Origin: Bacteroidota bacterium
GTDB lineage: Bacteria > Bacteroidota > Bacteroidia > Chitinophagales > Chitinophagaceae
Reading direction: 5' to 3'
Assembly: GCA_013287475.1 (NCBI GenBank)
Contig: JABDDT010000024.1
Coordinates: 1 to 36,747, forward strand
Length of the DNA: 36,747 nt
The position numbers and the translations under genes are program-made. The notes beneath the pieces were generated by a model that saw nothing but the letters and a program-made list of their open reading frames with translations, was not told where the DNA came from and did no database searches. This document shows, one piece after another, positions 14,322 through 31,512 of the stretch. How positions within the stretch are numbered: position 1 is the first letter of the stretch; the number at the start of each line of letters is the position of its first letter.

Positions 14322-14348
14322 GGTTCTGCGATTAGGGCAATCTTTAAA

Positions 14349-15053
14349 ATGAGATCGCGGATTACCATTTTCAAATCACTCATACATATTTTTTTCCCAT
14401 ATACCTGTTGCGGATGTGGTACAGATCTTCTTGCAGAAAATATATTATTTTGTATTTATTGTCAGGCTGCCATGCCCCTGACCTGTTTTGAATATTTCCC
14501 TTCAAATCCGATTGAAAAAATTTTCTGGGGCAGGGTCGTGATAGAAGCGGCAGCAGCCCATTTATATTTCACTACAGGTTCCGCAGTACAACATAGTCTT
14601 CATCTGCTTAAATATAAAAGCAAAAAAGAAATCGGCATTTATTTCGGTCATCGAATGGGTGAAACTTTAATTCATTCATGTCGATTCAGTAAATGCGAAA
14701 TCATAATTCCATTGCCTTTGTTTTCTGCAAGAGAAAAAAAGAGAGGATATAACCAGGCGGGGCTGATCGCTTTTGGTTTGTCGCAACGGATAAAAATTCC
14801 TGTTATTGAGGATGCAATTATACGAGTGAAAAAAACAGAAACACAGACTCATAAAAGCAGGATTCAGCGCTGGAAAAATATGGAATCGACTTTTGAAATA
14901 CGTAATCCACAAAAAATTTACGGTAAGCATATCTTGCTCGTGGATGACGTTATAACGACCGGTGCCAGTCTCGAGGCATGTGCCAGGGTTTTACTTAGTA
15001 TTCCGGGAGTCAGGATTAGTATAGCTTGTTTGGCGCATACGGTGTCGGCTTAG
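14349..15053 (+). CDS. comFC: ComF/GntX-family phosphoribosyltransferase-like protein
   Basis: The 234-residue protein has an N-terminal zinc-ribbon-like cysteine cluster (CCGCG ... CIYC, residues ~20-40). It ends in a type I phosphoribosyltransferase fold with the PRPP loop LLVDDVITTGASLEAC (~196-211) and the preceding KKRGYNQA motif. In naturally competent bacteria ComFC helps convert incoming single-stranded DNA into recombinants. No other competence gene is in the window. Co-direction with radA after 27 bases suggests a shared transcript and a recombination role (inference). It ends 3 bases before repeat element A. Confidence 0.87.
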   Translation: MRSRITIFKSLIHIFFPYTCCGCGTDLLAENILFCIYCQAAMPLTCFEYFPSNPIEKIFWGRVVIEAAAAHLYFTTGSAVQHSLHLLKYKSKKEIGIYFGHRMGETLIHSCRFSKCEIIIPLPLFSAREKKRGYNQAGLIAFGLSQRIKIPVIEDAIIRVKKTETQTHKSRIQRWKNMESTFEIRNPQKIYGKHILLVDDVITTGASLEACARVLLSIPGVRISIACLAHTVSA

Positions 15054-15056
15054 GTC

Positions 15057-15130
15057 GTTGGCAGTTGACCATTGATAGTTGACCGGTTGATTTATCTGAA
15101 CCAGCCAGCCACCAACGGCCAACAGCCTAC
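15057..15130. repeat. Heptad inverted-repeat element A (no ORF)
   Basis: The left arm is four heptads: GTTGGCA, GTTGACC, ATTGATA, GTTGACC (15057-15084). The right arm is four heptads of the opposite orientation: AGCCAGC, CACCAAC, GGCCAAC, AGCCTAC (15103-15130). They are separated by 18 bases. The outer boundary bases are C on the left and G on the right, as in elements B and C. It fills the gap between comFC and the beta-helix gene. The arms are more diverged here than in B or C. Confidence 0.75.
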
Positions 15131-15143
15131 GTCTTATTATTAC

Positions 15144-15151
15144 TATTTTTG
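15144..15151 (+). promoter_or_regulatory. -7-like box directly before the beta-helix lipoprotein gene
   Basis: TATTTTTG matches TAnnTTTG exactly and ends 5 bases before ATG 15157, so transcription would start at or near the start codon (leaderless). No TTTG lies about 19 bases upstream, where the right arm of element A sits, so support is only partial. Confidence 0.3.
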
Positions 15152-15156
15152 TCCGA

Positions 15157-16542
15157 ATGATTAAGAATCTGCTTTTTTGCATATTAGCCGTTTTAGCGCT
15201 TGTTTCCTGCCAAAAGCAATCAAATCTGAATGGAAGTGTCCTTCTTTTTCTTTCCCGGGATACCCTGAGTTTCGATACAGTTTTTACGACCACAGGCTCT
15301 GTTACCCAACAGGTTAAGTTGATTAATAATAACAATCACAGTGTCGGAATTTCATCTATAGCTCTGACAGGAGGCAACAGCTCTCCTTTCGTCATTAATA
15401 TTGATGGAACACCCGGACCGAGTGCCTCCAATCTGAATATCCAGGCCAATGACAGCCTTTATATTTTTGTAACCGTACTTATACCATCGGGAACCAAGCC
15501 CACGCCCTTTTTATTGCAGGATAGTATCAGAATCAGTTACAATGGCATAGAGCAATATATACAGTTGAATGCCTGGGGTCAGAATGCACATTTCTTAAAA
15601 AATGCGATCATTCAGGGGAATACCACGTGGCCAAATGATTTGCCTTATGTTATCTTGGGCGGTCTGACGATCGACAGCAACGCAACCCTCAACATCCAGG
15701 CAGGCGTTCATATATATATGCATGCAGACGCACCGATTTATATAGATGGCAGTCTTAAAGTAATGGGAGATACCGCAGCAAGTCAGCGGGTCTATTTTAC
15801 CGGCGATCGCCTTGATCAACCTTACGCAACTTACCCCGGTTCATGGCCTGGAATCTATTTCAGGAGTGCAAGCAGGGATAATGTGCTGAACTTTGCCAAT
15901 TTCCAGAACGGATATCATAGCCTCGTTGCAGAAGGACCCAGCGGTGATATGAATCCAAAACTTTCCCTGAATCAGTGTACCATAAACAATTCACTTGCTG
16001 AAGGGGTACTGGGTATTCAATCCAGTATAACTGCTATTAATTGCCAGATCAGCAATTGTGGACAAAATATCGTAATCAGTTTAGGGGGCGCTTATCGATT
16101 TGAATTTTGTACGGTTGCATCTTATTCAACAGACTTGCTAACACATCAGCAACCCGTGCTTACGGTTTCCAATGCCAGCTCTGATGGAACCCAGACAGGT
16201 GATCTGAACGCCGGCTTTTTAGATTGCATTTTCTGGGGAAGTCAGAGTATAACGGATGAAGCATCTATTTCCATGCAGGGAAATACAGTATTTAAAGTTT
16301 TGCTAGACCATTCTATTCTGAAACAGCAAAATTATCCTTCCAATATTGACAGTAATGCATTATGGCTAAATACCGATCCCCAATTTCTTGCTACTGGCTT
16401 TCCTGGAAATACATTTGATTTTCATGTAGAATCAACTTCACCGGCGGTGGATCATGGCTCTAACCTGGGCATTACCATTGACCTGGATGGCAATCCAAGA
16501 CCAGTAAATCTTCCCGATCTTGGTTGTTATGAGCGGCAGTAA
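15157..16542 (+). CDS. Beta-helix surface lipoprotein
   Basis: The 461-residue lipoprotein has signal peptide and lipobox LVSC with Cys18. Residues ~30-140 look like an immunoglobulin-like/choice-of-anchor domain (DTVFTTTGSVTQQVKLIN). Residues ~150-400 show a right-handed parallel beta-helix pattern with repeated short polar turns (GNTTW, GLTIDSNATLNIQAGVHIY, NFANFQNG, LNQCTINNS, INCQISNC). The end resembles the 'SPAVDHGSN...DLDGNPRP...DLGCYE' tail of choice-of-anchor Q proteins. It is probably displayed on the outer membrane and may bind or cleave polysaccharide; no catalytic site is identifiable. Confidence 0.8.
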   Translation: MIKNLLFCILAVLALVSCQKQSNLNGSVLLFLSRDTLSFDTVFTTTGSVTQQVKLINNNNHSVGISSIALTGGNSSPFVINIDGTPGPSASNLNIQANDSLYIFVTVLIPSGTKPTPFLLQDSIRISYNGIEQYIQLNAWGQNAHFLKNAIIQGNTTWPNDLPYVILGGLTIDSNATLNIQAGVHIYMHADAPIYIDGSLKVMGDTAASQRVYFTGDRLDQPYATYPGSWPGIYFRSASRDNVLNFANFQNGYHSLVAEGPSGDMNPKLSLNQCTINNSLAEGVLGIQSSITAINCQISNCGQNIVISLGGAYRFEFCTVASYSTDLLTHQQPVLTVSNASSDGTQTGDLNAGFLDCIFWGSQSITDEASISMQGNTVFKVLLDHSILKQQNYPSNIDSNALWLNTDPQFLATGFPGNTFDFHVESTSPAVDHGSNLGITIDLDGNPRPVNLPDLGCYERQ

Positions 16543-16605
16543 TTCTTATTCATTTCTCTTTAACTTTGATAGTGTAACATTGATTATAAAATAAAAAAAT
16601 ATACC

Positions 16606-17127
16606 ATGTTAAGATTATTGTTCATCCCAATTTTATTTATGATTCATAGCAGTGTAAGTGTGTATGATTTCAAAGTGCCTGCTCTGGATGGTGGAACCAT
16701 TGATTTGTCTGCATATAAAGGGAAGAAATTACTTATTGTAAATACTGCATCGAAATGCGGATTTACTCCACAGTATGCTGACCTTCAAAAATTATATGAA
16801 AAGTATAAAGACAAGCTCGTAATTGTGGGTTTTCCGGCAAACGATTTCGGTGGACAGGAACCAGGTACAAATACTGAAATCAAAGAATTCTGCCAGAAGA
16901 ATTATGGGGTAACCTTTCCGCTTGCTGCGAAATCAGATGTAGTAGGAGAAAATACATCCCCACTTTTTAAATATCTGACAGATGAAGCCATAAAACTTGG
17001 GACACCGGCTCCGGTAATCAAATGGAATTTTACCAAATTCCTGATTGATGAAAACGGAAAACTTATTGGTGTTTATAACAGTAAGGTTACTCCTATGAGT
17101 GATGAGATCACTTCTCACCTCAATTAA
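16606..17127 (+). CDS. Secreted glutathione peroxidase-family thiol peroxidase
   Basis: The 173-residue protein reduces peroxides. The catalytic residues are Cys51 in NTASKCGFTPQ, Gln84 in FPANDFGGQEPG, and Trp140-Asn141 in KWNFTKFLI. Cys96 (FCQKNYGVTFP) is a plausible resolving cysteine for thioredoxin-type recycling. Unlike most bacterial homologues (~160 residues, cytosolic), it opens with a hydrophobic stretch (residues 2-18) that looks like a signal peptide, so periplasmic location is likely. Catalytic Cys, not selenocysteine, is encoded (TGC). It lies 14 bases before the delta' gene. Confidence 0.92.
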   Translation: MLRLLFIPILFMIHSSVSVYDFKVPALDGGTIDLSAYKGKKLLIVNTASKCGFTPQYADLQKLYEKYKDKLVIVGFPANDFGGQEPGTNTEIKEFCQKNYGVTFPLAAKSDVVGENTSPLFKYLTDEAIKLGTPAPVIKWNFTKFLIDENGKLIGVYNSKVTPMSDEITSHLN

Positions 17128-17141
17128 TAAAGACCAGCCGG

Positions 17142-18302
17142 ATGTTATTCAGTCAGGTTATTGGTCAGCAGGAAATAAAAGCAAAGCTTCGCAACCTGGT
17201 TGAGCATAACAGGTTAAGTCATGCGCTGTTGTTGAATGCACCGGAAGGTGCAGGAGGCATGCCATTGGCTTTAGCATTTTCGCAATTCATGGTGTGCGAA
17301 CGCGTTTCAGAAGAAAATTCAAAAAATAATTTTCCTCTTGAAAGCTGTAATATTTGCCCTTCCTGTGTGAAAGCGGCCCAGATGATTCATCCGGATATTC
17401 ATTATGTATATCCGGTAATTTCGCGCAAATCAGGAGACAAGCCCGTAAGCGCAGATTTTATATCTGAATGGCGTGAATTCATTTCACAGTTTCCCTATGG
17501 AGCCATTTTTGACTGGCTTCAATTCATACAGGCAGATAATAAACAGGGGAATATTTCGGCTCATGAATGTAATGAGATCAATCGTAAACTCAGCCTTAAG
17601 AGTTTTGAAAGCGGATACAAGATCCTCATCATGTGGATGCCGGAATATCTGGGCAATGAAGGAAATAAATTATTGAAACTGATTGAAGAACCACCACCTG
17701 ATACCCTCTTCATTTTGGTGACCGAAAATGAAGCTCAGATCCTTCCTACAATACTTTCACGGGTTCAGATTATACGCCTGCCGCGGCCATCTGTTTCTGA
17801 CATCAAGGAAGCATTGATTGAACGCGCAGGAGTATCACCAGAGCAGGCGAGGCAGCTTGCGGCCGTTAATGAACAGAACTACCGCGAAGCCCTGAGGCAG
17901 TTACAACACGGTCAGGATGACTGGCAGGGATTATTGCGGGAATGGCTGAACGCAGTTTTGAAAACAGGACCAATAGCACAGGTAAAATGGGTGGAAGAAA
18001 TTAGCAAATCGGGACGTGAAAAGCAGAAACAATTTTTACAGTATTTTGGTCACCTGCTGGAACAAGCCATTCGGCTGCGGATGTCTGAAGGGGTACTTAC
18101 AGATATGGCAGAATCAGAAAAAGATTTTGCCATAAGACTGAATAAGACCGCAGATTTGTCCGCACAACAGGCTATCGTAAAGGAACTCAATAAATCGATT
18201 TATTTTATTGAAAGGAATGCGCATGCAAAAATGCTTTTTCATGCGCTTACCATACGTCTCTATCATATACTGTCGACCAGGGAAGAGGCGGTGGTGACAT
18301 AG
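17142..18302 (+). CDS. holB: DNA polymerase III subunit delta' (clamp-loader ATPase-like)
   Basis: The 386-residue AAA+ protein of the clamp loader opens with FSQVIGQQEIKAKLRN and contains a zinc module (C52, C69, C72, C75; CNICPSC). It also has NEGNKLLKLIEEPPPDTLFIL (about residues 180-200) and ILSRVQIIRLPRP. The P-loop region reads APEGAGGMPLA and lacks the Lys and Ser/Thr of a working Walker A motif, as expected for a delta' subunit that does not hydrolyse ATP. It follows the peroxidase by 14 bases and precedes ricT, a common Bacteroidota order. Confidence 0.9.
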   Translation: MLFSQVIGQQEIKAKLRNLVEHNRLSHALLLNAPEGAGGMPLALAFSQFMVCERVSEENSKNNFPLESCNICPSCVKAAQMIHPDIHYVYPVISRKSGDKPVSADFISEWREFISQFPYGAIFDWLQFIQADNKQGNISAHECNEINRKLSLKSFESGYKILIMWMPEYLGNEGNKLLKLIEEPPPDTLFILVTENEAQILPTILSRVQIIRLPRPSVSDIKEALIERAGVSPEQARQLAAVNEQNYREALRQLQHGQDDWQGLLREWLNAVLKTGPIAQVKWVEEISKSGREKQKQFLQYFGHLLEQAIRLRMSEGVLTDMAESEKDFAIRLNKTADLSAQQAIVKELNKSIYFIERNAHAKMLFHALTIRLYHILSTREEAVVT

Positions 18303-18310
18303 GAACTTAG

Positions 18311-18318
18311 TATATTTG
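18311..18318 (+). promoter_or_regulatory. -7-like box upstream of ricT
   Basis: TATATTTG is an exact match to TAnnTTTG, 29 bases before the ricT start and 8 bases after the delta' stop. No good TTTG is found 19 bases upstream, so it is only a candidate for a ricT promoter. Confidence 0.35.
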
Positions 18319-18347
18319 TCAACTTGCTTGTTAATTTATAAAAATAT

Positions 18348-19562
18348 ATGGGATGTTCTAATTGTGGTACCACCGGCAGCAAGCCAGGCGGATGCCAAAG
18401 TCACGGGAGCTGTGGTACAGGGAGTTGCAACAGGATGAATGTATATGACTGGCTATCAAATCTACCAATACACGATCCAACTTCTGAATGCAGGGTGATG
18501 GAAATAAGCTTTAATCAGGGTAGCAGAAAGGATTTTTTTCGGAATACAACAACACAAATCTTCGAAAAGGGAGAGATTGTAAGTGTGGAAGGAGTAAGTG
18601 GCTTTGATGTTGGTACGGTAAGTCTGACCGGAGAATTGGTCAGGATACAAATGAAGAAAAAAAGTGTAGATGAATTTCATGCCGAAATGAAAAAAGTACT
18701 TCGGCGTTCCACAGACCGTGACCTGGATCTGCTAAAACAAAATAAAGCCCGTGAAAAGGAGGCTGTTATCCGTTCACGCGCTATTTCGCGTCAGCTGAAG
18801 CTGGATATGAAAGTGTCACAGGTAGAAATTCAGGCTGATGGTCGCAAGGCCACATTCTATTATATTGCTGACGACCGGGTAGATTTCCGTGAACTCATCA
18901 AAATATTCGCATCTGAATTCCGTGTGAAAGTTGAAATGCGTCAGATCGGAGCGAGACAGGAAGCTGGAAAAGTTGGGGGCATTGGTAGTTGCGGGCGTGA
19001 ACTCTGTTGCTCAACATGGCTAACAGATTTTAAATCGGTCAATACAACTGCCGCCCGATATCAGAATCTTTCCATCAATCAAAGTAAACTCAGTGGACAG
19101 TGCGGCCGCTTGAAATGCTGTTTGAACTATGAACTCGATACATATCTGGACGCACTGCAACAGTTTCCGGAAAATGCAGATACATTGCAGGTTGCGAAAG
19201 GAACAGCCCTGCTGATTAAAAAAGATATTTTTAAAAATCTGATGTGGTATGTATTGCCAGACAGCAATAAGCAATACCCACTCTTAATTGAAAGGGTTAA
19301 ACAGATTAAAAAACTAAATCAGCAGAATATCATTCCAGATGAGCTGGGCGCGGTAGAAGTAAACGGAAAACCAAAAGAAGAATTGGTAAATGTTGATCTT
19401 ACAGGCCAGTTCAGTTTGAAAACACTGGATAATGCTGATCGCAAAAAAAGACATAACCAACCGGGACCGCCGCAACAGCGTAGAAACGATAACAGGCCGA
19501 ATAACAGACCAAATAACAAACCTAACAACAAACCACCACAAGGTCCGCCAAGAAAGAAATAA
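18348..19562 (+). CDS. ricT: RicT/YaaT-type PSP1-domain protein
   Basis: The 404-residue protein contains a PSP1 domain with the signature cysteine motifs CGRELCCSTWLTDF and SGQCGRLKCCLNYE (residues ~210-265). In Bacillus the Ric (Y-)complex binds Fe-S clusters and modulates RNase Y-dependent mRNA processing; Bacteroidota function is not established. The N-terminus has an extra Cys/Gly-rich patch (five Cys in the first 27 residues). The C-terminus is a disordered basic tail made of repeated NRPN/NKPN units. The start ATG 18348 gives MGCSNCG. The alpha/beta hydrolase gene follows after 6 bases. Confidence 0.88.
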   Translation: MGCSNCGTTGSKPGGCQSHGSCGTGSCNRMNVYDWLSNLPIHDPTSECRVMEISFNQGSRKDFFRNTTTQIFEKGEIVSVEGVSGFDVGTVSLTGELVRIQMKKKSVDEFHAEMKKVLRRSTDRDLDLLKQNKAREKEAVIRSRAISRQLKLDMKVSQVEIQADGRKATFYYIADDRVDFRELIKIFASEFRVKVEMRQIGARQEAGKVGGIGSCGRELCCSTWLTDFKSVNTTAARYQNLSINQSKLSGQCGRLKCCLNYELDTYLDALQQFPENADTLQVAKGTALLIKKDIFKNLMWYVLPDSNKQYPLLIERVKQIKKLNQQNIIPDELGAVEVNGKPKEELVNVDLTGQFSLKTLDNADRKKRHNQPGPPQQRRNDNRPNNRPNNKPNNKPPQGPPRKK

Positions 19563-19568
19563 TATTTC

Positions 19569-20423
19569 ATGAGAGGCTTTAAGAAGAAATTGTTCCTGCT
19601 TTCAGGTCTGTTCCTGTTGAGCTGGATTCTTCTTGCACAAAGTTGTATGAGCTTCCGGAAATCGGATGCAGATGAAACAGCTGAATTTGCAAAAGATCAG
19701 GTTGAACTCAGGACCGCAACACTAAAAGTAGAAGGCCGGCATATTCACTATGCTCTTACAGGAAATGATTCACTTCCGACAATTTTTTTTATTCACGGAT
19801 CTCCCGGAAGCTGGACCGCTTTTGAAGATTATATGAAGGATTCTTTATTATTGAAAAAATTCAGGATGGTTTCAGTTGACCGTCCGGGTTTTGGATATAG
19901 TGATTATGGTCAGCCGCAACATCTTGATGTGCAATCGTTTTGGATTAGTAAGCTTTTCCCTTTACTTGCAAATAACAAACGTATGTTTCTCGCAGGTCAT
20001 TCTTTAGGAGGCCCTTTGGTTATCAAACTTGCTGCGGACAATCCAAAGATATTTTCAGGCCTGGTAGTTATCTCAGGATCTATTGATCCGGGAGAAGAAA
20101 AACCTGAGAAATGGAGGCCCTGGCTTTTTAATACCCCTTTGAATTATTTTGTTCCGGGTGCCATGCGACCTTCCAACGAAGAATTATGGTATTTGAAAAA
20201 AGATCTTGTGCAACTCGAAAAAGATTTCTCTAAAATTCACTGCTCTGTCCATTTTATCCATGGTACAATGGATACATGGGTTCCGCCCGGGAATGTAGAT
20301 TATGGTAAGAGACTGTTGGTTAATGCCCCCATTGTGGAAGAAACAATGATTCCGGGAGCTAACCACTTCATTCCATGGACAAAGTTCACAGAAATCCGCT
20401 CAGTTTTGTTAAAGTTGTATTAA
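19569..20423 (+). CDS. Alpha/beta-fold hydrolase, membrane-anchored or lipoprotein
   Basis: The 284-residue hydrolase has a complete predicted triad: Ser145 in GHSLGG, Asp235 in HGTMDTWVP, and His266 in GANHFIP. The oxyanion region is FIHGSPGSW. The N-terminus is a hydrophobic signal (residues 8-24) followed by Cys26 (LLAQSC), an imperfect lipobox, so it is either a lipoprotein or a signal-anchored protein. Substrate is unknown. It is 6 bases downstream of ricT, so they are probably co-transcribed. In several Flavobacteriia, to my recollection, gldH follows this ricT-like gene, but no GldH-like protein is seen here. Confidence 0.85.
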   Translation: MRGFKKKLFLLSGLFLLSWILLAQSCMSFRKSDADETAEFAKDQVELRTATLKVEGRHIHYALTGNDSLPTIFFIHGSPGSWTAFEDYMKDSLLLKKFRMVSVDRPGFGYSDYGQPQHLDVQSFWISKLFPLLANNKRMFLAGHSLGGPLVIKLAADNPKIFSGLVVISGSIDPGEEKPEKWRPWLFNTPLNYFVPGAMRPSNEELWYLKKDLVQLEKDFSKIHCSVHFIHGTMDTWVPPGNVDYGKRLLVNAPIVEETMIPGANHFIPWTKFTEIRSVLLKLY

Positions 20424-20498
20424 GCATGGAAAGCATATCTGACCTCTTTACATTACATGTTCTTTTTAGTAAATTGCAAGTCCTAAACAAATAAAAAT

Positions 20499-21248
20499 AT
20501 GGCTATTTTCAAATCGGGTAATCCTGCGATGAATGTTTTCGAAAATACAGTAACCCTGCCTGGTTCGGGCACCATGACTGAAACAGGTACGCTCAATAAG
20601 TTTTTTCTCTTGTTTTTACTCGTTATGGCATCTGCTTCATTGACATGGAAAGCATTTTATGATGGGGTAAATGTAATGCCCTATGTGTTTGGTGCAGCAA
20701 TCCTGGGTTTTATCACTGCAATGGTTGTAATATTTAAAAAAGAATGGGCAGCTTACGTTACCCCCGTTTATGCATTATTCGAAGGTGTTGTACTTGGTGG
20801 TATTTCCGCAACTTATAATAATGTATTTGCAAAAACAGCACCGGGCATTGTAACTCAGGCCGTACTGTTAACCTTTGGAGTCGTGATCGCGATGTATGTA
20901 TTATATCGTTTCAGGATTATCAAAGTGACAGATAAATTAAGGTCTATTATTTTTACAGCAACAGCCGGCATTGCTATCTTTTATTTATTGTCAATCGTTC
21001 TGGGCTTTTTCCATATAAATATTGGTTTCATTAATGAAGGATCTGCTCTCGGCATTGGCTTTTCTTTAGTTGTAGTTGTTATCGCCTCGATGAACCTGCT
21101 GCTGGATTTTGATATGATTGAGAAAGGTGTAGCTGCAGGCGCACCAAAATATATGGAATGGTATGGTGCTTTCGGATTGCTGGTTACCCTTGTATGGCTC
21201 TATCTGGAAATCCTTCGCCTGCTTGCAAAACTGGCAAATCGCAGGTAA
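20499..21248 (+). CDS. Bax inhibitor-1/YccA family membrane protein
   Basis: The 249-residue protein has about seven transmembrane segments between residues 32 and 245. It includes the characteristic YALFEGVVLGGISATY and the C-terminal NLLLDFDMIEKG followed by MEWYGAFGLLVTLVWLYLEILRLL, whose acidic residues form the di-Asp type pH/Ca2+ sensor of this family (compare YetJ). A pH-gated calcium leak is known for relatives; the role in this organism is inferred. It stands alone, 75 bases after the hydrolase, and converges with the RND operon. Confidence 0.9.
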   Translation: MAIFKSGNPAMNVFENTVTLPGSGTMTETGTLNKFFLLFLLVMASASLTWKAFYDGVNVMPYVFGAAILGFITAMVVIFKKEWAAYVTPVYALFEGVVLGGISATYNNVFAKTAPGIVTQAVLLTFGVVIAMYVLYRFRIIKVTDKLRSIIFTATAGIAIFYLLSIVLGFFHINIGFINEGSALGIGFSLVVVVIASMNLLLDFDMIEKGVAAGAPKYMEWYGAFGLLVTLVWLYLEILRLLAKLANRR

Positions 21249-21256
21249 AATACCTG
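21242..21256. terminator. Short hairpin between convergent genes
   Basis: CAGGTA (21242-21247), AAA, TACCTG (21251-21256) form a perfect 6-bp stem that overlaps the stop codon of the Bax-inhibitor gene, 23 bases from the end of the RND gene. There is no clear U tract on either strand, so terminator function is uncertain. Confidence 0.3.
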
Positions 21257-21278
21257 ACTTGTATAACGAGGCTATATT

Positions 21279-24200: not shown

Positions 24201-24854
24201 AGCAATATCATTGAATGTAATATTGGAGCTCTGCATTTTGTAATTGTCCACATTGATCTGGAACTCGCGTTCAGGTGCACCCACTTCATCCACGCGATTG
24301 ATCTGTGATAACTCTTCAAGTTTATCTTTCAGATCGTCGGCAAATTTTTTCAGATGCTGTCCGTCGTAATTACCACTCACATTTACATACATGATTGGCT
24401 GATCAGACAAACTTACTTCCACAACATTTGGTTGGGATGTCAGGTCGGTGGGTAAATCGGTTTTCGATTTGTCAACGGCATCTTTTACTTTCTGTAATGC
24501 TACATCCGTCTTAACATCCGTTTCGAATTCCACAATAATGGCCGAAAAATCCTGGACAGAAGTGCTGGTTAGTTTATTAATCTTAGCTCCGGTTATACCC
24601 TTGATCTGTTTTTCGATGGGACGGGTAACGAGGTTTTCAATATCCTTGGGAGAATTGCCAACATAGGTTGTCTGCACATAAATCGTAGGAATAACAATAT
24701 CCGGAAATTGTTCTTTTGGAGTAGTGACGAATTTATTTACACCCAGGATGGTCACAAAAATGATCAGCAGATATACGGATGTTTTATTGTTGATGGCCCA
24801 GCTCGTGGGTTTGAATTCCTTGAATTTCCCTTTAAAATTTTCCAGCGTGCTCAT
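21279..24854 (-). CDS. RND-family multidrug efflux permease (AcrB-like)
   Basis: The 1191-residue inner-membrane pump uses the proton gradient to drive export. The proton-relay residues are present: the Asp pair in GIIVDDAIVVIE (~416) and the Lys in GIVVKNGILVIEF (~1018). Two large periplasmic porter domains follow TM1 and TM7. The protein is 130-150 residues longer than usual. An insert at ~525-575 adds two probable helices between TM6 and TM7, and an extra hydrophobic helix lies near the C-terminus (~1150-1175). It is the last gene of the tetR-tolC-adaptor-pump operon, 37 bases after the adaptor stop. Confidence 0.94.
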   Translation of the reverse strand: MSTLENFKGKFKEFKPTSWAINNKTSVYLLIIFVTILGVNKFVTTPKEQFPDIVIPTIYVQTTYVGNSPKDIENLVTRPIEKQIKGITGAKINKLTSTSVQDFSAIIVEFETDVKTDVALQKVKDAVDKSKTDLPTDLTSQPNVVEVSLSDQPIMYVNVSGNYDGQHLKKFADDLKDKLEELSQINRVDEVGAPEREFQINVDNYKMQSSNITFNDIATAVANENLDISGGLLEVGNMKRTLQLKGQFKTASDIEQIIIRNTSSAPIYLKDIATIIDTVKQSESYARLDGKNVVTLNIIKRSGENLIETSDEVKRVVAEMKETQFPKDLAVVVTGDQSRTTRTSFNDLVNSIVIGFVLVLVILMFFMGVTNAFFVALSVPLSMFVAFMFLPAADIIIGGHVTLNFIVLFALLFGLGIIVDDAIVVIENTHRIFTEGKGRVTSIIAAKVAAGEIFIPVLAGTLTTLAPFFPLLFWPGLIGKFMIYLPVMLIFTLSASLIVAFIMNPIFAVDFMNHADEGHAGRKSRVFKNPLFYTFLVLGIFLDLSHFTFGGNLLIFFSILMFLNAYLFTGMIHTFQNRSLPWIMSHYERGLRWALKSWRPVWLLIGTFLLLIFSFVFLGIRKVPVVFFPKGDPNFIYVYLKLPVGTNVDYTDSVTHQLENRVNKVLGISDGKLNPLVESVISNVAIGAGNPQSGDRSTRPELGRVQVSFVEFEKRHGRATTPILDSIRAALKGIPGAEISVDQEQNGPPTDPPINIEIASDNFEDLTVTASALKNYLDSIQTPGVEELKMDVDLTNPEITLTIDRQRAMIEGVSTAQIGQQIRTALFGRELSKIKDNKEEYKIQLRNTEVQRRNLTDLLNMKIFFREPTGTIKSIPITNLVKIDFTSTYGSIKRKSLKRVITLYSNVLTGYTPPAVNAELKDAIDNFQNKADDVTITQTGEGKQQQETVSFLGSALLMALMLILFILVLQFNSISKPVIILTEIIFSIIGVLLGFAFTGMTISAVMTGLGIVGLAGIVVKNGILVIEFADVLRERGMKTREALIQAGKTRIIPVLLTALAAILALIPLAIGFNIDFVKLFAELNPHIFFGGDSAVFWKPLSWTIIFGLAFAFFMTLFILPSMYLIAERLKRPMRRYFGGKWISMMGIPPFTLIFIIILIPVTLVRHAIEKARRERKFAGKNVSATWIGSWF

Positions 24855-24891
24855 AAAATCGATTTGGAATGATTATAGAAACTTCTCTGAA

Positions 24892-26040
24892 TCATTGTAT
24901 CTGCGTGGTTATAGGTTGCTGATCATACAGACCCTGGTAACCTTCGGTAATAACATTATCACCCTGTTTGACTCCTTTCAGGACTTCGACCCTGTCTGAA
25001 TACATCATACCGATAGTAATGGATTTTTTGCTCGCAATCAGCCGTTCGCCATCTTTCACTGCTACCATCACGTATTTTCCATTTTCATCATTCTGGAGGC
25101 TGTTTACCGGAATGGTTAAGGCATTGGATGCAGTATAATCCTGAATTTTAATAAGTGCCACCTGGTTGGGATAGAAATCTTTTTCATAAGGAAGTTTAGC
25201 TTCCACATAAAAGCTCCTGTTGGTAGCATCGATTGTTTTCCCTGTTACAGATATTTTTGTATCGATAGACTTATTATTGAGTTCCGGGATAACCACTTTC
25301 ACAATACTTCCCACTTTGACTTTACCAAGATAATTTTCCGGTACCTGCGCAACTGCTTTAAGTTCATTAGTATTTACAAGGCGGATCTGGTTATTCCCAC
25401 TGAAAAACTCACCCAGACGAATATTTACATTATCAGCAATACCATTGATATCTGCATACACATTGGTAAGTTCAATTTGTTTATTTACAAAATCTACCTG
25501 TTTCTGCGCCTGATCCACCTGATTTTTAGATGTGACCAATTCAACTTCTGAACCAATCTGTTGCGCCCAGAGATTTTTCCTTCTATTATATAAATCCTGC
25601 GCAAAAGACAGTTGTTGTTTGGCTGTTGCAAGTTGCTGAATTAATAAAGCGTCGTCGAGTTTGAGTAACAATTGTCCCTTCTTTACAAAGTCGCCCTGCT
25701 TTACATAAATGTCTTTTACCTGTCCACCCGTACCATTTCTCGGTGTTACATAAGCAATATTCAATGCATCAATTTTTCCCTGCAGTTCAATATAATGTGT
25801 AAAATCCATTGGCATCACCGGTTGAATAGCCACCAGTTTTTCTTTTTCCTTTTTTACAGACGAGGGATCTATTTCTGCCAGCTCTTTCTCAGCTTTTTGA
25901 ATTTTAGTTACGAGGGCTACCTGCTGGTCTTTCAGGCTTTGCAGTTCGGCTTTTTTCTTCGTAACAGGATCACCGCCCTGACCGCATGACATTAAAAGTA
26001 TGGTTCCTGTGAAAAGGGCAGATAAAAATATCTTATTCAT
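24892..26040 (-). CDS. RND efflux periplasmic adaptor (membrane fusion lipoprotein)
   Basis: The 382-residue adaptor joins the RND pump to the outer-membrane channel. It has a lipoprotein signal with lipobox LMSC (Cys19), then a charged coiled-coil segment (residues ~27-66), unusual in that it precedes the barrel-sandwich domain. A biotinyl-lipoyl-like motif (QGDFVKKGQLLLKLDD, ~112-128) is followed by the alpha-hairpin, and then beta-barrel and membrane-proximal domains (YPNQVALIKI; GVKQGDNVITEG). It is flanked by the TolC-like gene (21 bases) and the pump (37 bases). Confidence 0.92.
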   Translation of the reverse strand: MNKIFLSALFTGTILLMSCGQGGDPVTKKKAELQSLKDQQVALVTKIQKAEKELAEIDPSSVKKEKEKLVAIQPVMPMDFTHYIELQGKIDALNIAYVTPRNGTGGQVKDIYVKQGDFVKKGQLLLKLDDALLIQQLATAKQQLSFAQDLYNRRKNLWAQQIGSEVELVTSKNQVDQAQKQVDFVNKQIELTNVYADINGIADNVNIRLGEFFSGNNQIRLVNTNELKAVAQVPENYLGKVKVGSIVKVVIPELNNKSIDTKISVTGKTIDATNRSFYVEAKLPYEKDFYPNQVALIKIQDYTASNALTIPVNSLQNDENGKYVMVAVKDGERLIASKKSITIGMMYSDRVEVLKGVKQGDNVITEGYQGLYDQQPITTQIQ

Positions 26041-26061
26041 ATTCTGGTTTGTTTGTCGTTA

Positions 26062-27411
26062 TTAAATTTTACCGATTGCTTTGAGATAATCCACTTTTGC
26101 TAACACTGCATTATAGAGTGCATTGATATAATTGGATTGTGCCTGGATCAGGTCAGTCTGCGCATTGGTCAGATCAGTTGATGATGCAAGACCTGATTCA
26201 TATTTTTTCTTTGTCTGATCGTAAACAGATTCCGCCAGGATGGTATTTTCCCGTTGGTTATCCATATTTTTAATGGCATTTATAAAATTATTTCTGGCCG
26301 TACGCACTTCGACATCTATACTCTGTTTCAGGTTCTCAATCTGATCACTCACCAGTATAGATTGGAGTCTCGCCTTTTTTAAATTGGCATCTTTCGAAAA
26401 GCCACTGAATATGGGTACATTCAGTGAAAACCCAAAATAGGAAGTGCTGTACCAGGTACTCGATTTACTGAATAAATCAAATGTATTATTGAGTGCATTT
26501 TTCTGATAAGCGCCATTAAGGCTCAATGTTGGATAATAAACTGCCTGGTAACGTTTGACATCGAAATCGCTCAGCTGTTTTGAAATCTGAAGACTTTGAT
26601 AATCGTATCTGTCTTCATAGCGATAAGTAAGATCCATTGGAATACCACCTTTAAGTTGCGTTTCATCAAAATTGGTAGCAAGATTTATGGAATCTGCAGC
26701 AGGAATTCCTATTAAATATTTAAGTGTCAGATATCCGTTGACAATAGTTGTCTGTGTATTTTCTTTGGATGTCTGAAGATTGGCAAGCTGGACAACAGCT
26801 TTGTCTACATCCAGTTTTTCTGCAAAACCATTCTCATTCATTATTTTGGTATCGTGTAATAATTTTGCCGCCCTGGCGATATTTGCATCCAGCAATTCGA
26901 ATTGTGTTTTGCTTACTACCAGTAAATAATAAGTTTTGTAAACATTTACAGACAAATTCTCCATGGTAAGGTCAATATTTTTTCTATAATAGTCCAGGGA
27001 TGTGGCTCTCGCTTTCAATCCGACAAAAACAGCTCCATCAAAAAGTTTTTGACTTAATTGAACACCACCGGTCAAATTGAATTTTTGATTTAGGGAAACA
27101 GCCTGAGAAGTTGGTGGAAATCCTGGTCCGAAGGAATTTGCCGCAAGCACAATAACAGGTATCTGAAAATAATTTGTGGAGGTACCGACTGCCGAAATGG
27201 TTGGCAATGCATCCGCTGTTAGTTGTTTATTCGTTTGTTCCTGCACATTCAGGTTGGCGAGCGCTGTTTTTATCTGGATATTGTTTTTCTTGGCGAGATC
27301 CAGTGCATCCTGGATCGTGAGTTCATGGATGGATTGCGCTCCTGCAAAAGCGATCACCATGGAGGTAAGGATCGCTGTAAGAATAAATTTATGATGAAAT
27401 CTTTTGCTCAT
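26062..27411 (-). CDS. TolC-family outer-membrane efflux channel
   Basis: From Met at 27411 the protein is 449 residues; an in-frame ATG at 27435 adds 8 residues. I prefer 27411 because it puts a short basic n-region directly before the signal peptide (FILTAILTSMVIAFAGAQS). Both starts overlap the 3' end of tetR. Two OEP repeats with long alpha-helical hairpins are visible (LTIQDALDLAKKNNIQIK near the start; YESGLASSTDLTNAQTDLIQAQ near the end). It trimerises in the outer membrane to form the exit duct for the adjacent adaptor and pump. Confidence 0.92.
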   Translation of the reverse strand: MSKRFHHKFILTAILTSMVIAFAGAQSIHELTIQDALDLAKKNNIQIKTALANLNVQEQTNKQLTADALPTISAVGTSTNYFQIPVIVLAANSFGPGFPPTSQAVSLNQKFNLTGGVQLSQKLFDGAVFVGLKARATSLDYYRKNIDLTMENLSVNVYKTYYLLVVSKTQFELLDANIARAAKLLHDTKIMNENGFAEKLDVDKAVVQLANLQTSKENTQTTIVNGYLTLKYLIGIPAADSINLATNFDETQLKGGIPMDLTYRYEDRYDYQSLQISKQLSDFDVKRYQAVYYPTLSLNGAYQKNALNNTFDLFSKSSTWYSTSYFGFSLNVPIFSGFSKDANLKKARLQSILVSDQIENLKQSIDVEVRTARNNFINAIKNMDNQRENTILAESVYDQTKKKYESGLASSTDLTNAQTDLIQAQSNYINALYNAVLAKVDYLKAIGKI

Positions 27412-28030
27412 TTGAAAAGTTTTTTTGTCTTTCATTCAAATATTTTTCAATTAGTTTTTTCCCTTTTGGATTACAGATACTGTGCAAAAAAAGGATGGCC
27501 AGTTCCTGGCAGGTCTGGTTCATCGGGTATTTATTTTGCGGGAAAGCTTCCTGGTTGAAAGGCATAAACGCTGATTCAATCCGGTAGCGGGTCGTCAGGT
27601 CGATGTTGAGGTCGGTCCGGTAAATATCCTCCCGGGCTCCCCTTTCCAGATTTTCTTTGATCGTAGAAAAGAGAAACTGATATTTATATTGTTTAAGCCG
27701 CTTAAAAGCTACAGGATGATGTTTTTCCAGATCGTACATTATCTGTGGATTCATGGCTTTCATCATTTCCTGTGTGAAATCCATAGCCATGAAAATTTCA
27801 TGGACCGCATTTTCAGCTGTAAGACTGAAACCCCGGCAATCCTCTTCATTTTGATTTATTAACTCATTTACCACGGCCTCAACCATGGTGTCTTTATCAG
27901 TGAAGAATTGATAGATGGTTTTCTTGCTGATACCAAGCTGGGCCGCGATTTCGTCCATGGTTATGGACCTGATTCCATACTGCATGAACAGGTCATGCGC
28001 TTTCTCCAGTATTCTTTCTTTGTTTTCCAT
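27389..28030 (-). CDS. TetR/AcrR-family transcriptional regulator of the efflux operon
   Basis: The 213-residue regulator has an N-terminal TetR helix-turn-helix (residues ~8-50; ITMDEIAAQLGISKKTIYQFF) and a helical ligand-binding C-terminal domain. It is the first gene of the RND operon and its end overlaps the start of the TolC-like gene, so it is co-expressed with the pump it probably controls. A consensus promoter with a perfect inverted repeat across it sits 21 bases upstream (28051-28088), which points to autorepression. The inducer is unknown. Confidence 0.93.
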   Translation of the reverse strand: MENKERILEKAHDLFMQYGIRSITMDEIAAQLGISKKTIYQFFTDKDTMVEAVVNELINQNEEDCRGFSLTAENAVHEIFMAMDFTQEMMKAMNPQIMYDLEKHHPVAFKRLKQYKYQFLFSTIKENLERGAREDIYRTDLNIDLTTRYRIESAFMPFNQEAFPQNKYPMNQTCQELAILFLHSICNPKGKKLIEKYLNERQKNFSNEQKISS

Positions 28031-28050
28031 TTTTATCTTCTAAAGAGGCA

Positions 28051-28088
28051 CAAAACTACGGAAACTATTTATGTAACCAAAGTTTCCG
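28051..28088 (-). promoter_or_regulatory. tetR/RND operon promoter with overlapping probable TetR operator
   Basis: On the minus strand TTTG (28081-28078), exactly 19 bases, then TAGTTTTG (28058-28051) is a full match to the Bacteroidota promoter. A perfect 8-bp inverted repeat, CGGAAACT (28059-28066) and AGTTTCCG (28081-28088), is separated by 14 bases. One arm abuts the -7 box and the other overlaps the -33 element. Predicted transcription start is about 15 bases before tetR ATG. The arrangement fits steric repression by the TetR product. On the plus strand, TATTTTTG (28093-28100) could serve a divergent transcript. Confidence 0.75.
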
Positions 28089-28175
28089 CCAATATTTTTG
28101 ATGATTTTAGTGATAAATCTGGCAGGATGGCCTTACTACCTGTGTTTTAAACATGGGCTCGGCAGAATGTTTGAT

Positions 28176-28183
28176 TATTTTTG
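28176..28183 (+). promoter_or_regulatory. -7-like box before the DUF502 gene
   Basis: TATTTTTG matches TAnnTTTG exactly and ends 17 bases before ATG 28201. No -33 TTTG is visible at the right distance. It also argues that the gene starts at 28201 and not at the in-frame ATG 28153, which lies upstream of this box. Confidence 0.3.
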
Positions 28184-28200
28184 ATGTCAAACCACTGTTT

Positions 28201-28821
28201 ATGAAATTTCAGATCATATTGGGTAAACTGTTCAAGTATTTTTTACAGGGTCTGATTATTCTGGCACCGATAACGATTACGTTTTGGACGGTTTATTCAT
28301 TGTTTAACTGGGTTGACAGTATTCTTCCAAATTTCATTCACCGTCTTTTCCCAAAGCTTGCGCTGGATGAAAATGGTGAGCCAAGGCATATTCCGGGTAT
28401 TGGATTTATCCTTGTTATTGTGATTGTATTGATAGTGGGATATGTTTCTTCATCCTTTATCGTGAGTAAGCTGGTAGAACTATTCGATAATATACTGGAG
28501 AAGACACCTGGCATTAAAATCATTTACAGCACCATCAAGGATTTCTTCGAGGCTTTTGCCGGCAACAAACGCAAATTCGACAGGGCAGTACTGGTTTGTA
28601 TCGAATCGACGGATATCTGGCGAATAGGTTTTATCACACATGCTGAACTGGCAGAGTTCGGCCTACAGGAATATATTTCGGTATATGTCCCGCAATCATA
28701 TGCATTTGCAGGTCATTTGTATTTTGTAAAAAAAGATAGGGTTCGTCTAATTCCTGACATCACATCTACCGACGCGATGAAATTCGCCATTTCCGGCGGG
28801 GTTACAAATATTGATGAATAG
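28201..28821 (+). CDS. DUF502 family membrane protein
   Basis: From ATG 28201 the protein is 206 residues and begins MKFQIILGKLFKYF; an in-frame ATG at 28153 would add 16 unconserved residues. Two transmembrane helices are predicted (LQGLIILAPITITFWTVY near residues 15-35, and FILVIVIVLIVGYVSSSF near 65-85). The family motif PGIKIIYSTIKDFFEAF and a soluble C-terminal domain with YVPQSYAFAG follow. Its function is unknown in bacteria. It diverges from the tetR operon and ends 7 bases before repeat element B. Confidence 0.87.
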   Translation: MKFQIILGKLFKYFLQGLIILAPITITFWTVYSLFNWVDSILPNFIHRLFPKLALDENGEPRHIPGIGFILVIVIVLIVGYVSSSFIVSKLVELFDNILEKTPGIKIIYSTIKDFFEAFAGNKRKFDRAVLVCIESTDIWRIGFITHAELAEFGLQEYISVYVPQSYAFAGHLYFVKKDRVRLIPDITSTDAMKFAISGGVTNIDE

Positions 28822-28828
28822 AAGACCC

Positions 28829-28961
28829 GTTGGCAGTTGGCAGTTGGCCGTTGGCAGTTAGATATATTATATACTATAAATGGTATAGGAGATTTGGAAA
28901 TGGACAATTAATTTTGAATATCTTAATAGAGCCGACCAGCGACTAACGGCCAACGGCCAAC
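28829..28961. repeat. Heptad inverted-repeat element B (no ORF)
   Basis: The left arm is GTTGGCA, GTTGGCA, GTTGGCC, GTTGGCA (28829-28856). The right arm is GACCAGC, GACTAAC, GGCCAAC, GGCCAAC (28934-28961). The spacer is 77 bases and AT-rich. The outer boundary bases are C and G as in A and C. The arms could pair over about 28 positions with mismatches mostly at the seventh base of each heptad. The spacer holds no ORF but does contain a TAATTTTG (28909-28916). Confidence 0.82.
28909..28916 (+). promoter_or_regulatory. -7-like box inside element B
   Basis: TAATTTTG is an exact TAnnTTTG match in the loop of element B, 67 bases before the phospholipase-like gene. The nearest TTTG upstream (28893-28896) leaves only a 12-base spacer, so a full promoter is not shown. 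Confidence 0.25.
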
Positions 28962-28983
28962 GATTAGTAGATAAACATCTTTT

Positions 28984-29949
28984 ATGAAGAAGATTTACTA
29001 CTTAATCTTTCTGCTCCTTACATCACTTCGCTCCTACTGCTGGGGATTTTATATGCATGAAAAAATAAATTATCATGCAGTTTTTCTCCTGCCACCTCAA
29101 ATGATGATTTTATTCAAACCTAATATCGGCTTCCTTTCAGAACACGCAGTAGATCCGGATAAAAGGCGGTATATGATTGCCAGCGAGGGTGCACATCATT
29201 TTATAGATATTGATCATTATGGCCAATATCCCTTTCCGGAAGTTCCCCGTGATTATAAATCAGCCATACTAAAATTTTCAGCTGATAGTTTGCAGGCTTA
29301 TGGAATAGTGCCCTGGTGGATTCAGATTATGGTCGGAAGACTTACTAAAGCTTTCCGTGAAAAAGACAAACAGGCCATCCTCAAAATTGCTGCGGACCTG
29401 GGCCATTATATTGCTGACGCACACGTTCCGTTGCATGTCTGCTCAAATCATAACGGGCAGCTGACTCATCAGGAAGGTATTCACGCATTCTGGGAATCAC
29501 GGGTTCCTGAAATATTTGCTGAGACGGAATGGGATTTCTTCATAGGCAAAGCGATGTATATTCCAAATCTTTCATCATTCATATGGGATCGTATATTGGA
29601 AAGTGCAGTTGCAGCAGATACTGTTCTCCATTGCGAAAAAGAAATCAGCGTGCTTACAAATCCTGAACAGAAATATGCATTCGAGGAGCGCAATGGAAAA
29701 ATCGTGAAGCAATATTCAACGGAATATGCAACTCTTTTTGAAAGCAGGTTAAACCACATGATCGAACGGCGTATGCGGCAATCAATTTTTGCTGTCGCTT
29801 CCTGCTGGTATACAGCATGGGTGAATGCCGGTCAGCCGCCTCTTGACCACCTGGTGCATGACAGTCTTTTTATTTCCGAAGAAAAAGAATATCAGCGCCT
29901 GAATTTGGAATGGAAGAATGGGAAGATTTTGGGGAGGAATTGCAATTGA
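28984..29949 (+). CDS. Secreted zinc-dependent phospholipase C / S1-P1 nuclease-like hydrolase
   Basis: The 321-residue protein has a signal peptide (residues 1-19). Trp20 then begins the mature chain as WGFYMHEKIN, matching the tri-zinc PLC/S1-P1 plan in which the N-terminal Trp is itself a ligand. Further probable ligands are His25, the HHFIDIDH cluster (H71-H78), His141 and Asp145 in LGHYIADAHVPLH, His151, His167 and Glu171 (HAFWE). A phosphoesterase acting in the periplasm or outside is likely; lipid versus nucleic acid substrate cannot be decided. It is bracketed by repeat elements B (22 bases before) and C (2 bases after). Confidence 0.82.
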   Translation: MKKIYYLIFLLLTSLRSYCWGFYMHEKINYHAVFLLPPQMMILFKPNIGFLSEHAVDPDKRRYMIASEGAHHFIDIDHYGQYPFPEVPRDYKSAILKFSADSLQAYGIVPWWIQIMVGRLTKAFREKDKQAILKIAADLGHYIADAHVPLHVCSNHNGQLTHQEGIHAFWESRVPEIFAETEWDFFIGKAMYIPNLSSFIWDRILESAVAADTVLHCEKEISVLTNPEQKYAFEERNGKIVKQYSTEYATLFESRLNHMIERRMRQSIFAVASCWYTAWVNAGQPPLDHLVHDSLFISEEKEYQRLNLEWKNGKILGRNCN

Positions 29950-29951
29950 TC

Positions 29952-30415
29952 GTTGGCGGTTGGCTGTTAGCCGTTGGCAGGAAAATGAATCAAATCTATT
30001 TAAAGGCATTATAAAAACGTTTTATGTCAAATTATAAAAAATTAGATGTCTGGAAATTATCAATCGAAATTGTAAAAGTGATTTATATTTTGACAAAATT
30101 ATATCCATCTGAAGAACGTTATGGACTGATTTCGCAAACTAATAGAGCAGTAGTTTCAATACCTTCAAATTTAGCAGAAGGATTTGGAAGAAATTCTATA
30201 AAAGATACAATTCATTTCTTATATATTTCAAGATGATCAGCCTATGAAGTAGAAACACTTTTAAATATTGCATTCGCAATAAAAATAATAAGTGAAGAAT
30301 CTTATAATAAAGTCAATGACATATTGGAAAGGGTTCTAAAAGTTATAAATGGTTATATCAATTATTTAGAAAAAAAACTATAAATCCGGCCAACAGCCAA
30401 CTACCAACAGCCAGC
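29952..30415 (+). mobile_element. Heptad inverted-repeat element C carrying a four-helix-bundle gene
   Basis: The left arm is GTTGGCG, GTTGGCT, GTTAGCC, GTTGGCA (29952-29979). The right arm is GGCCAAC, AGCCAAC, TACCAAC, AGCCAGC (30388-30415). They enclose 408 bases that consist almost entirely of the pseudogene at 30024-30383. The outer boundary bases C and G agree with elements A and B. There is no transposase and no obvious target duplication. The element starts 2 bases after the upstream stop and ends 35 bases before serC. Calling it mobile is inference from repeated structure and the much lower GC inside. Confidence 0.6.
30024..30383 (+). pseudogene. Four-helix-bundle protein (23S rRNA intervening-sequence protein family), broken by an in-frame TGA
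   Basis: The frame encodes MSNYKKLDVWKLSIEIVKVI and so on, with the family motifs YGLISQTNRAVVSIPSNLAEG and, after the break, SAYEVETLLNIA. Codon 71 (30234-30236) is TGA where the family motif FLYIARGS has Gly, a single GGA to TGA change. The same frame then runs on to TAA 30381-30383, giving 119 codons, the normal family length. TGA is the ordinary stop in this genome (lutB, the phospholipase-like gene and the acyl-CoA synthetase end in it). I counted 65 G+C of 240 bases in 30061-30300 (27%), well below the flanking genes. It sits inside inverted-repeat element C. The S23/IVP family shares the fold of DGR Avd proteins; its function is unsettled. Confidence 0.87.
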
Positions 30416-30450
30416 GAAATGTTGTAAATTGCGCTTCCAAGATCAAATAG

Positions 30451-31503: not shown

Positions 31504-31512
31504 TTTTAATAT

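Follow-up and report, generated by a model that had tools for sequence, protein, structure and literature searches.

The window, the whole stretch of DNA that was analysed, comprises 36,747 nucleotides from a Bacteroidota bacterium of the Chitinophagaceae (contig JABDDT010000024.1 of assembly GCA_013287475.1), whose genome we call G000 (3.16 Mb, 137 contigs, 74% complete). It carries three inverted-repeat elements, A, B and C, with arms of tandem 7-base units, and the third of these encloses a gene of the PF05635 family ("four helix bundle / 23S rRNA IVP", hereafter IVP), which is probably a pseudogene given its one in-frame TGA. The features lie as follows.

15057..15084, plus strand: element A 5′ arm, four loose heptads, GTTGGCA GTTGACC ATTGATA GTTGACC
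15103..15130, plus strand: element A 3′ arm, AGCCAGC CACCAAC GGCCAAC AGCCTAC, after a spacer of 18 bases
28829..28856, plus strand: element B 5′ arm, GTTGGCA GTTGGCA GTTGGCC GTTGGCA
28934..28961, plus strand: element B 3′ arm, after a spacer of 77 bases
29952..29979, plus strand: element C 5′ arm, GTTGGCG GTTGGCT GTTAGCC GTTGGCA
30024..30383, plus strand: IVP gene (PF05635) inside element C, with the in-frame TGA; 119 bits for the translation
30388..30415, plus strand: element C 3′ arm, GGCCAAC AGCCAAC TACCAAC AGCCAGC, after a spacer of 408 bases

The original prediction had these coordinates, the four 7-base steps per arm and the three spacers right, as we confirmed on the sequence, and it was also correct that each element begins close behind a gene: the arms start 3 (A), 7 (B) and 2 (C) bases past the stops of open reading frames (ORFs) at 14349-15053, 28153-28821 and 28984-29949. 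It overlooked both the IVP gene in the AT-rich spacer of element C (25% GC) and the private unit that each IVP possesses. The spacers of A and B leave no room for such a gene, and element C sits between two protein genes, not in a 23S rRNA gene. Element A has a loose unit (ATTGATA, GTTGACC). The six arms score 19 to 24 out of 24, while 100 first-order Markov shuffles reach at most 17, a score also found at one unrelated window position (25611); at up to two mismatches, GTTGGCNGTTGGC has 17 matches in the window, 16 of them inside the elements (1.98 expected). Folded as RNA, element A gives −40.8 kcal/mol on the minus strand and −21.0 kcal/mol on the plus strand, and the arm-arm duplex of element C gives −32.2 kcal/mol. 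A known RNA family was rejected as an identity for the three elements, with no Rfam match at gathering score in 14000-31600.

A, B and C are members of an element family that is widespread in bacteria and has the gene of a small protein enclosed by inverted arrays of 7- to 8-base repeats. A profile search found seven PF05635 copies in G000, all seven between inverted arms; six have the units TTAACGC, GTTGGCN, AAAGCCT, TTAATTA and two 8-mers, around GTGTGGTA and around AGTATAGG, and the seventh (C2, L036) has a long inverted repeat with only a loose 12-14-base periodicity. Genes of this family, about 320-360 bp long, are present in 45 of 60 genomes drawn from the taxonomic family and in 111 of 148 drawn from the phylum. 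To score arms, we took the 300 bases on either side of the gene, determined the best inverted match between the two stretches and called arms present at a score of at least 13. On this measure arms flank 87 of 100 IVP loci, which were mostly the best-scoring matches of each search, versus 3 of 200 anchors in the same loci (100 of 105 loci were used, five being shorter than 3250 bases, and L037, at a contig end, was also excluded); minus-strand loci were left unreoriented here, arm scores being strand-independent and the orientation results coming from other analyses. Pooled, arms occur at 170 of 198 IVP loci versus 25 of 497 small genes (12/162 in G000 and 13/335 in other genomes). In a set of named records, with 77 of 80 loci scorable after three with short flanks were dropped, they occur at 48 of 58 Bacteroidota loci (anchors 4/108) and at 15 of 19 loci from other or unplaced phyla (anchors 2/36; one of the 19 is an unnamed bacterium). 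The titles of the latter records name Verrucomicrobia, Acidobacteria, Chloroflexi, Planctomycetes, Nitrospirae, Elusimicrobia, Hydrogenedentes, Ignavibacteria and more, although these labels were read from the titles, many belong to metagenome-assembled genomes, and single labels may be wrong.

Only periods of 6-10 bases were tested on the 342 arms, and among the 299 that were clearly tandem the period was 7 in 219, 8 in 63 and 9 in 9. Rounded units per arm in the same 299 numbered 4 in 118, 5 in 66 and 3 in 35, with a median of 4.4: four units is the modal arm length of the pooled IVP elements and not a rule. The claim of exactly four heptads per arm holds in A, B and C, but it fails as a rule because the number of units per GTTGGC-like array ranges from 3 to 13 across the G000 stretches sampled (it is 4 in 40 of 76), the very variability that had been named beforehand as weakening it. 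Likewise, a C before and a G after the arms is true of A, B and C, whereas the base preceding these 76 arrays is C in 36, G in 24, A in 13 and T in 3. The proposed genome search for further copies returned 234 matches at up to three mismatches, many copies and not three; a reversed control pattern returned 233, which we read as the same arrays matched where N is G. About four positions are near-invariant and one or two variable in 191 period-7 arrays, and the unit is common to both arms of one element and differs between IVP lineages. What characterises the class is not GTTGGCN, each IVP of G000 having its own unit, but an IVP gene enclosed by inverted arms that are built of short tandem units. 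The original suggestion of an element class in which a 7-base period is amplified is supported by the many copies, their conserved polarity, their intergenic placement and, as read by eye, their presence and absence at orthologous sites. Two loci have unusual arms. At L052 (9906-9995; contig C39 of G000) a perfect TTTAGGC array of ∼13 units adjoins an IVP gene and, because it is very homogeneous, has probably expanded recently; at L268 (G207) the arms extend outward as a perfect 19-base inverted copy beside a run of N, either an assembly artefact or the footprint of an inverted duplication.

We compared arms with IVP sequences among 203 pooled elements (4 of 27 genus loci were dropped as too short), keeping the 171 with an arm score of at least 13. 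Arm similarity climbs with IVP identity across the 171. Among non-syntenic pairs, which have no common neighbouring gene, arms are alike in 1-3% below 0.5 IVP identity, in 13.5% of 252 pairs at 0.55-0.6, in 30 of 67 at 0.6-0.7 and in 4 of 4 at 0.7-0.8; one of these pairs consists of L130, from the same phylum as the window, and L335, whose record is labelled Nitrospirae. The sampled IVPs nearest to that of element C, L253 (G210) and L268, are 61% identical to it and lie at another site between GTTGAC/GTTGGC arms. Arm sequence thus belongs to the element, following IVP identity even at non-syntenic loci. We also note a gap between two genes that we take from their end sequences to be argC-like and argD-like, which holds an IVP element in several genera (L078, L079, L081, L098, L143); the unit of L143 differs from the others'.

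Inverted repeats are common to gene-bearing and gene-less copies in G000, of which we sampled 743 kb; the stretches were picked partly for GTTGGC and IVP matches, so the count for the L032 family is inflated. After exclusion of 12 of 236 G000 arrays that matched no arm, 224 arrays away from IVPs match some arm, and for 171 of these the best of 91 arm sets is that of an IVP of the same genome (17.2 expected). Six of the seven G000 IVPs have 14 to 48 cognate gene-less arrays each, and L036 has none. With seven genomes pooled, 197 of 295 arrays best match their own IVPs (18.9 expected), including 14/26 in G051, 5/10 in G028 and 4/8 in G021, the genomes besides G000 contributing only 1-3 IVP arm sets each. 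GTTGGC arrays are abundant in G000 although the IVP gene of element C has an in-frame TGA, and none of the other six IVPs found in this 74%-complete genome has GTTGRC arms. Dense 8-mer arrays, TCTTACGG, were seen at L221 (G055), with their best arm match in another genome.

Where same-family arrays lie within 250 bp of each other in the G000 sample, 36 pairs from six unit families are in element polarity, none is reversed and one is "++"; the loops of the 36 span 18-116 bases. Element B is among them, and element A, too loose for the tandem threshold, is counted in a separate set of GTTGRC pairs, 14 of 14 of which, A, B and C included, are in element polarity. ORFs of at least 120 aa cover less than half of every one of the 36 pairs, in a sample that is 85% coding. 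Spacers of the 14 GTTGRC pairs gave a single weak match to one another (15.4). These data bear on the alternative of simple slippage, in which heptamer microsatellites grew by chance and were paired by coincidence. Variable unit number (3 to 13) and the preponderance of single arrays would suit slippage, but a second-order Markov null of 183,540 bases contained 0 arrays against 21 real ones, and both the 36:0 polarity and the association with IVPs contradict it, leaving it hardly credible.

Across genomes, arrays tend to accompany IVPs. Among the 33 genomes of the genus, 12 of 13 that are IVP-positive have GTTGRC arrays versus 3 of 20 that are IVP-negative (Fisher p 1.4e-5) and, at a completeness of at least 90%, so do 6 of 7 versus 1 of 12 (p 0.002), four of the six having only 2-3 matches. 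In the taxonomic family, TAAGTNN arrays occur in 22 of 45 IVP-positive versus 1 of 15 IVP-negative genomes (p 0.003) and GTTGGCN arrays in 7 of 45 versus 0 of 15 (p 0.12); the reversed word TGAATNN, meant as a control yet itself a plausible heptad, occurs in 31 of 45 versus 3 of 15 (p 0.001). IVP copy number and array density are not significantly correlated (rho 0.16, p 0.56). Having an IVP looks usual for genomes that carry arrays, but it does not suffice, nor is it proven to be required. IVPs with GTTGRC arms were found in G000, G207, G210 and G225.

Arrays might instead have been spread by RAYT/REPIN or reverse-transcriptase elements with the IVP as a passenger, and the inverted doublets with short loops in extragenic space do resemble REPINs as described in PMC3116915. 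Of the eight congeners with at least 20 GTTGRC matches, G225 and G227 (55 and 20 matches) have both Y1_Tnp and RVT_1, but neither the Y1 transposase (PF01797) nor RVT_1 was found in the other six, namely G210, which is 99% complete, and G000, G217, G220, G207 and G208, which are 58-86% complete. A RAYT or reverse transcriptase was accordingly rejected as a necessary driver in the genus, and since the arms moreover track IVP sequence we judge this explanation very improbable.

The IVP lies between two genes co-directional with it in 144 of 171 elements, against a baseline of 46% of 1438 genes, and in 162 of 171 at least the upstream gene reads the same way; as averages of 56 synteny clusters the two proportions are 0.76 and 0.93. 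The facing stop codon is within 25 bases at 164 of 184 gaps of IVP elements and at 41 of 43 gaps of gene-less pairs, making stop proximity general beyond A, B and C. Gene-less pairs also lie within 25 bases of a start codon in 18 of 26 cases (the start being the first possible codon), and therefore many fill the whole gap; for these pairs the stop side is only modestly closer than the start side (Wilcoxon p 0.04), and the corresponding start-side gaps of IVP elements are unreliable, with ORFs cut near the element. The 5′ arm is G-rich and C-poor in 46 of 54 informative synteny clusters, which suggests that the strand matters.

The elements might instead act at the RNA level, as a form of the 23S rRNA intervening sequence (IVS) that lies between genes: the arms would pair in the polycistronic transcript, and cleavage of the stem by RNase III would release the IVP message, making the insertion nearly neutral. 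The sense orientation and the G-rich 5′ arm both fit, and the same protein family occurs in the loop of an inverted-repeat stem in the Coxiella IVS, as described in PMC4990558. Among non-complementary arm pairs, however, G.U shows no excess over A.C (189 versus 213, p 0.25), giving no sign of a selected RNA helix; wobble pairs are not favoured, and we therefore make no commitment to an RNA stem as the selected form and set aside RNA-helix conservation in the arms. This reading also leaves the matching gene-less families unexplained, and we consider it improbable.

We compared orthologous sites in congeners by eye. Site A looks empty in G208, G210, G220, G227 and G212; the hairpin there in G207 is a different one, G216 has some other inverted repeat and G225 a 7-mer array (G035 has another upstream gene, and G228 is unreadable). 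At site B, G207 and G217 each carry a hairpin of the GTTGAC type and G216 one of an 8-mer type, G212 shows nothing, and G208, G210 and G220 are not clear. At site C the same downstream gene is present in G217, G210 and G212, all without an IVP, and G217 has two heptads only. Presence and absence among congeners, one part of the comparison first proposed, was thus seen, but clean insertion boundaries were not demonstrated, the empty counterparts of the three sites being too diverged for base-exact junctions. Post-stop sites are thus occupied repeatedly and by different words, which fits insertion or conversion.

The stop-proximal placement, the match of units to resident IVPs, the prevalence of single arrays and the persistence of site B hairpins in several congeners despite a changed unit could also mean that the IVP is a nucleic-acid-binding regulator and that the arrays are immobile, dispersed binding sites or 3′-end hairpins (terminators, stabilisers) kept by host selection. 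Occupancy nevertheless varies among congeners, with several empty sites, units turn over at one site while several unrelated units coexist per genome, and gene-less pairs also lie near start codons. We regard such a regulatory role as doubtful.

The explanation we favour, with a probability of roughly 0.55, is that all three elements come from a selfish "IVP element" family, C as a decayed copy that bears the gene and A and B as relatives that lack it; we read the organisation of this family as like that of REPIN-RAYT systems, with an unrelated protein. From the comparative data we infer that IVP elements are mobile. A sequence search for solved relatives of the IVP returned 2gsc (XCC0516) and 2rld; XCC0516 is described in PMC4990558 as a toroidal homopentamer of four-helix bundles, and the available text of that paper gives no known function for the PF05635 family. 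The NCBIfam model TIGR02436 is likewise named "four helix bundle protein." We hypothesize that a 2gsc-type pentamer recognises the repeated units in the arms of its own element, perhaps with about one protomer per unit, which would fit 4-5 units per arm, and that the IVP together with host enzymes could drive the copying or insertion of array-bearing DNA. Gene-less copies would then spread in trans, as REPINs do with RAYTs, and the post-stop position and sense orientation would reflect survival of the least harmful insertions and expression from the upstream promoter. A more far-reaching version, which we offer tentatively and with the odds against it, holds that IVPs are sequence-specific ring proteins that read lineage-specific tandem 7- or 8-base words, one per protomer, and form with host replication or repair a transposase-free selfish system, present in many phyla, which places arrays of words just after stop codons and evolves together with those words. 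A defence system was rejected as a candidate, with 0 PADLOC families for the one IVP tested.

Several observations weigh against the selfish-element explanation. All 22 pairs at 0.8 identity or more share a neighbouring gene (arms alike in 19), and in a separate pair comparison homology extends through the flanks in 8 of 9 pairs; the pairs at this identity look like old insertions inherited across genera, and the IVP element itself must therefore move rarely. The arms of L253 and L247, which are 80% identical and occupy one site, do not resemble each other. Neither a transposition event nor a target duplication nor a base-exact empty site was shown, although no systematic search for duplications was made, and no known catalytic domain was found in the IVP, the two IVPs tested matching only four-helix-bundle, hypothetical-protein and, weakly, Avd models. 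In G000, 155 arrays are single versus 74 in pairs, and the doublet is therefore not the usual form. Matching to the own IVP is weak or absent in G003 (2/16), G047 (1/5) and G055 (0/6, with one of its seven IVP arm sets used). Several IVP-positive genomes have few arrays, and among IVP-positive congeners at least 90% complete only 2 of 7 have at least 20 GTTGRC matches (G210 with 250 and G227 with 20). Conversely, the IVP-negative genomes G039 and G224 have 32 TGAATNN and 11 GTTGRC matches, respectively, and have either lost their IVP, had it missed, or obtained arrays from another source. A GTTGRC-armed IVP was not found in the array-rich G217 (its one IVP) or G220 (two of three scored), and none of the four IVPs of G208 was scored for arms. 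An unselected 20-kb sample gave a weak contrast between IVP-positive and IVP-negative genomes (p 0.07, one of the 20 IVP-positive "arrays" being a run of N). IVP-positive genomes may also share ancestry, and arrays are not mutually independent, which makes the p values optimistic.

With these data the common PF05635 family gains a candidate substrate, the tandem words beside each gene, for which sequence alone would be enough to design a test, and the heptamer repeats of these genomes become tied to a gene. The data also suggest that repeats can be spread by a system in which no known transposase or reverse transcriptase takes part. Searches of the open-access PMC literature turned up no account of IVP genes flanked by inverted tandem arms; PMC5524665, in its available text, merely lists a four helix bundle protein gene.

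Parts of this organisation have counterparts in known systems. The IVP elements share terminal inverted repeats on gene-bearing and gene-less copies (in G000) with insertion sequences and MITEs, but no transposase with a known catalytic domain is among the models matched by the two IVPs tested. Those two IVPs also match NF033474 (Avd, of diversity-generating retroelements) weakly, at E values of 2e-5 and 6e-4, below the cut-off, but RVT_1 was not found in the six array-rich congeners. The TAACTGA heptamers (MacGregor 2015), which the available text of PMC4679880 describes as intergenic direct repeats with many sets per genome, also in five Bacteroidetes, and with no transfer mechanism evident, are similar in being intergenic tandem heptamers in many sets per genome; they differ in being direct bar one inverted exception, mostly upstream of start codons and of one fixed heptamer, and that text contains none of the terms "IVP," "23S" and "four helix." The Coxiella burnetii 23S rRNA IVS has an S23p ORF between terminal inverted repeats, with heptameric direct repeats upstream (PMC4990558, in its available part). 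It shares with the IVP elements a PF05635 ORF between terminal inverted repeats (that of element C has a stop), but the latter are intergenic, mostly have tandem arms on both sides and have abundant gene-less copies in some genomes. The IVP arrays may represent a single phenomenon together with the heptamers of the Coxiella IVS and the TAACTGA heptamers of Beggiatoaceae, Cyanobacteria and Bacteroidetes.

REPIN-RAYT systems, as set out in the available part of PMC3116915, consist of a few protein loci with matching flanking repeats and many gene-less repeats, some of which are hairpin-forming inverted doublets. Coding loci with matching repeats, many extragenic gene-less repeats and several independent families per genome recur here, as do inverted doublets in extragenic space (the 36 "+-" pairs of the G000 sample, beside 155 single arrays). 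However, the protein here is a four-helix-bundle IVP and there a Y1 tyrosine transposase, the repeats are tandem 7-8-base units (median 4.4 per arm) and not a single short palindromic REP unit, most gene-less arrays are single, and no RAYT was found in the six array-rich congeners. Because REPIN-RAYT and the 23S rRNA IVS each depart from the IVP elements in a defining feature, we consider the organisation new, resembling the former and carrying the gene of the latter, with a mechanism that we infer.

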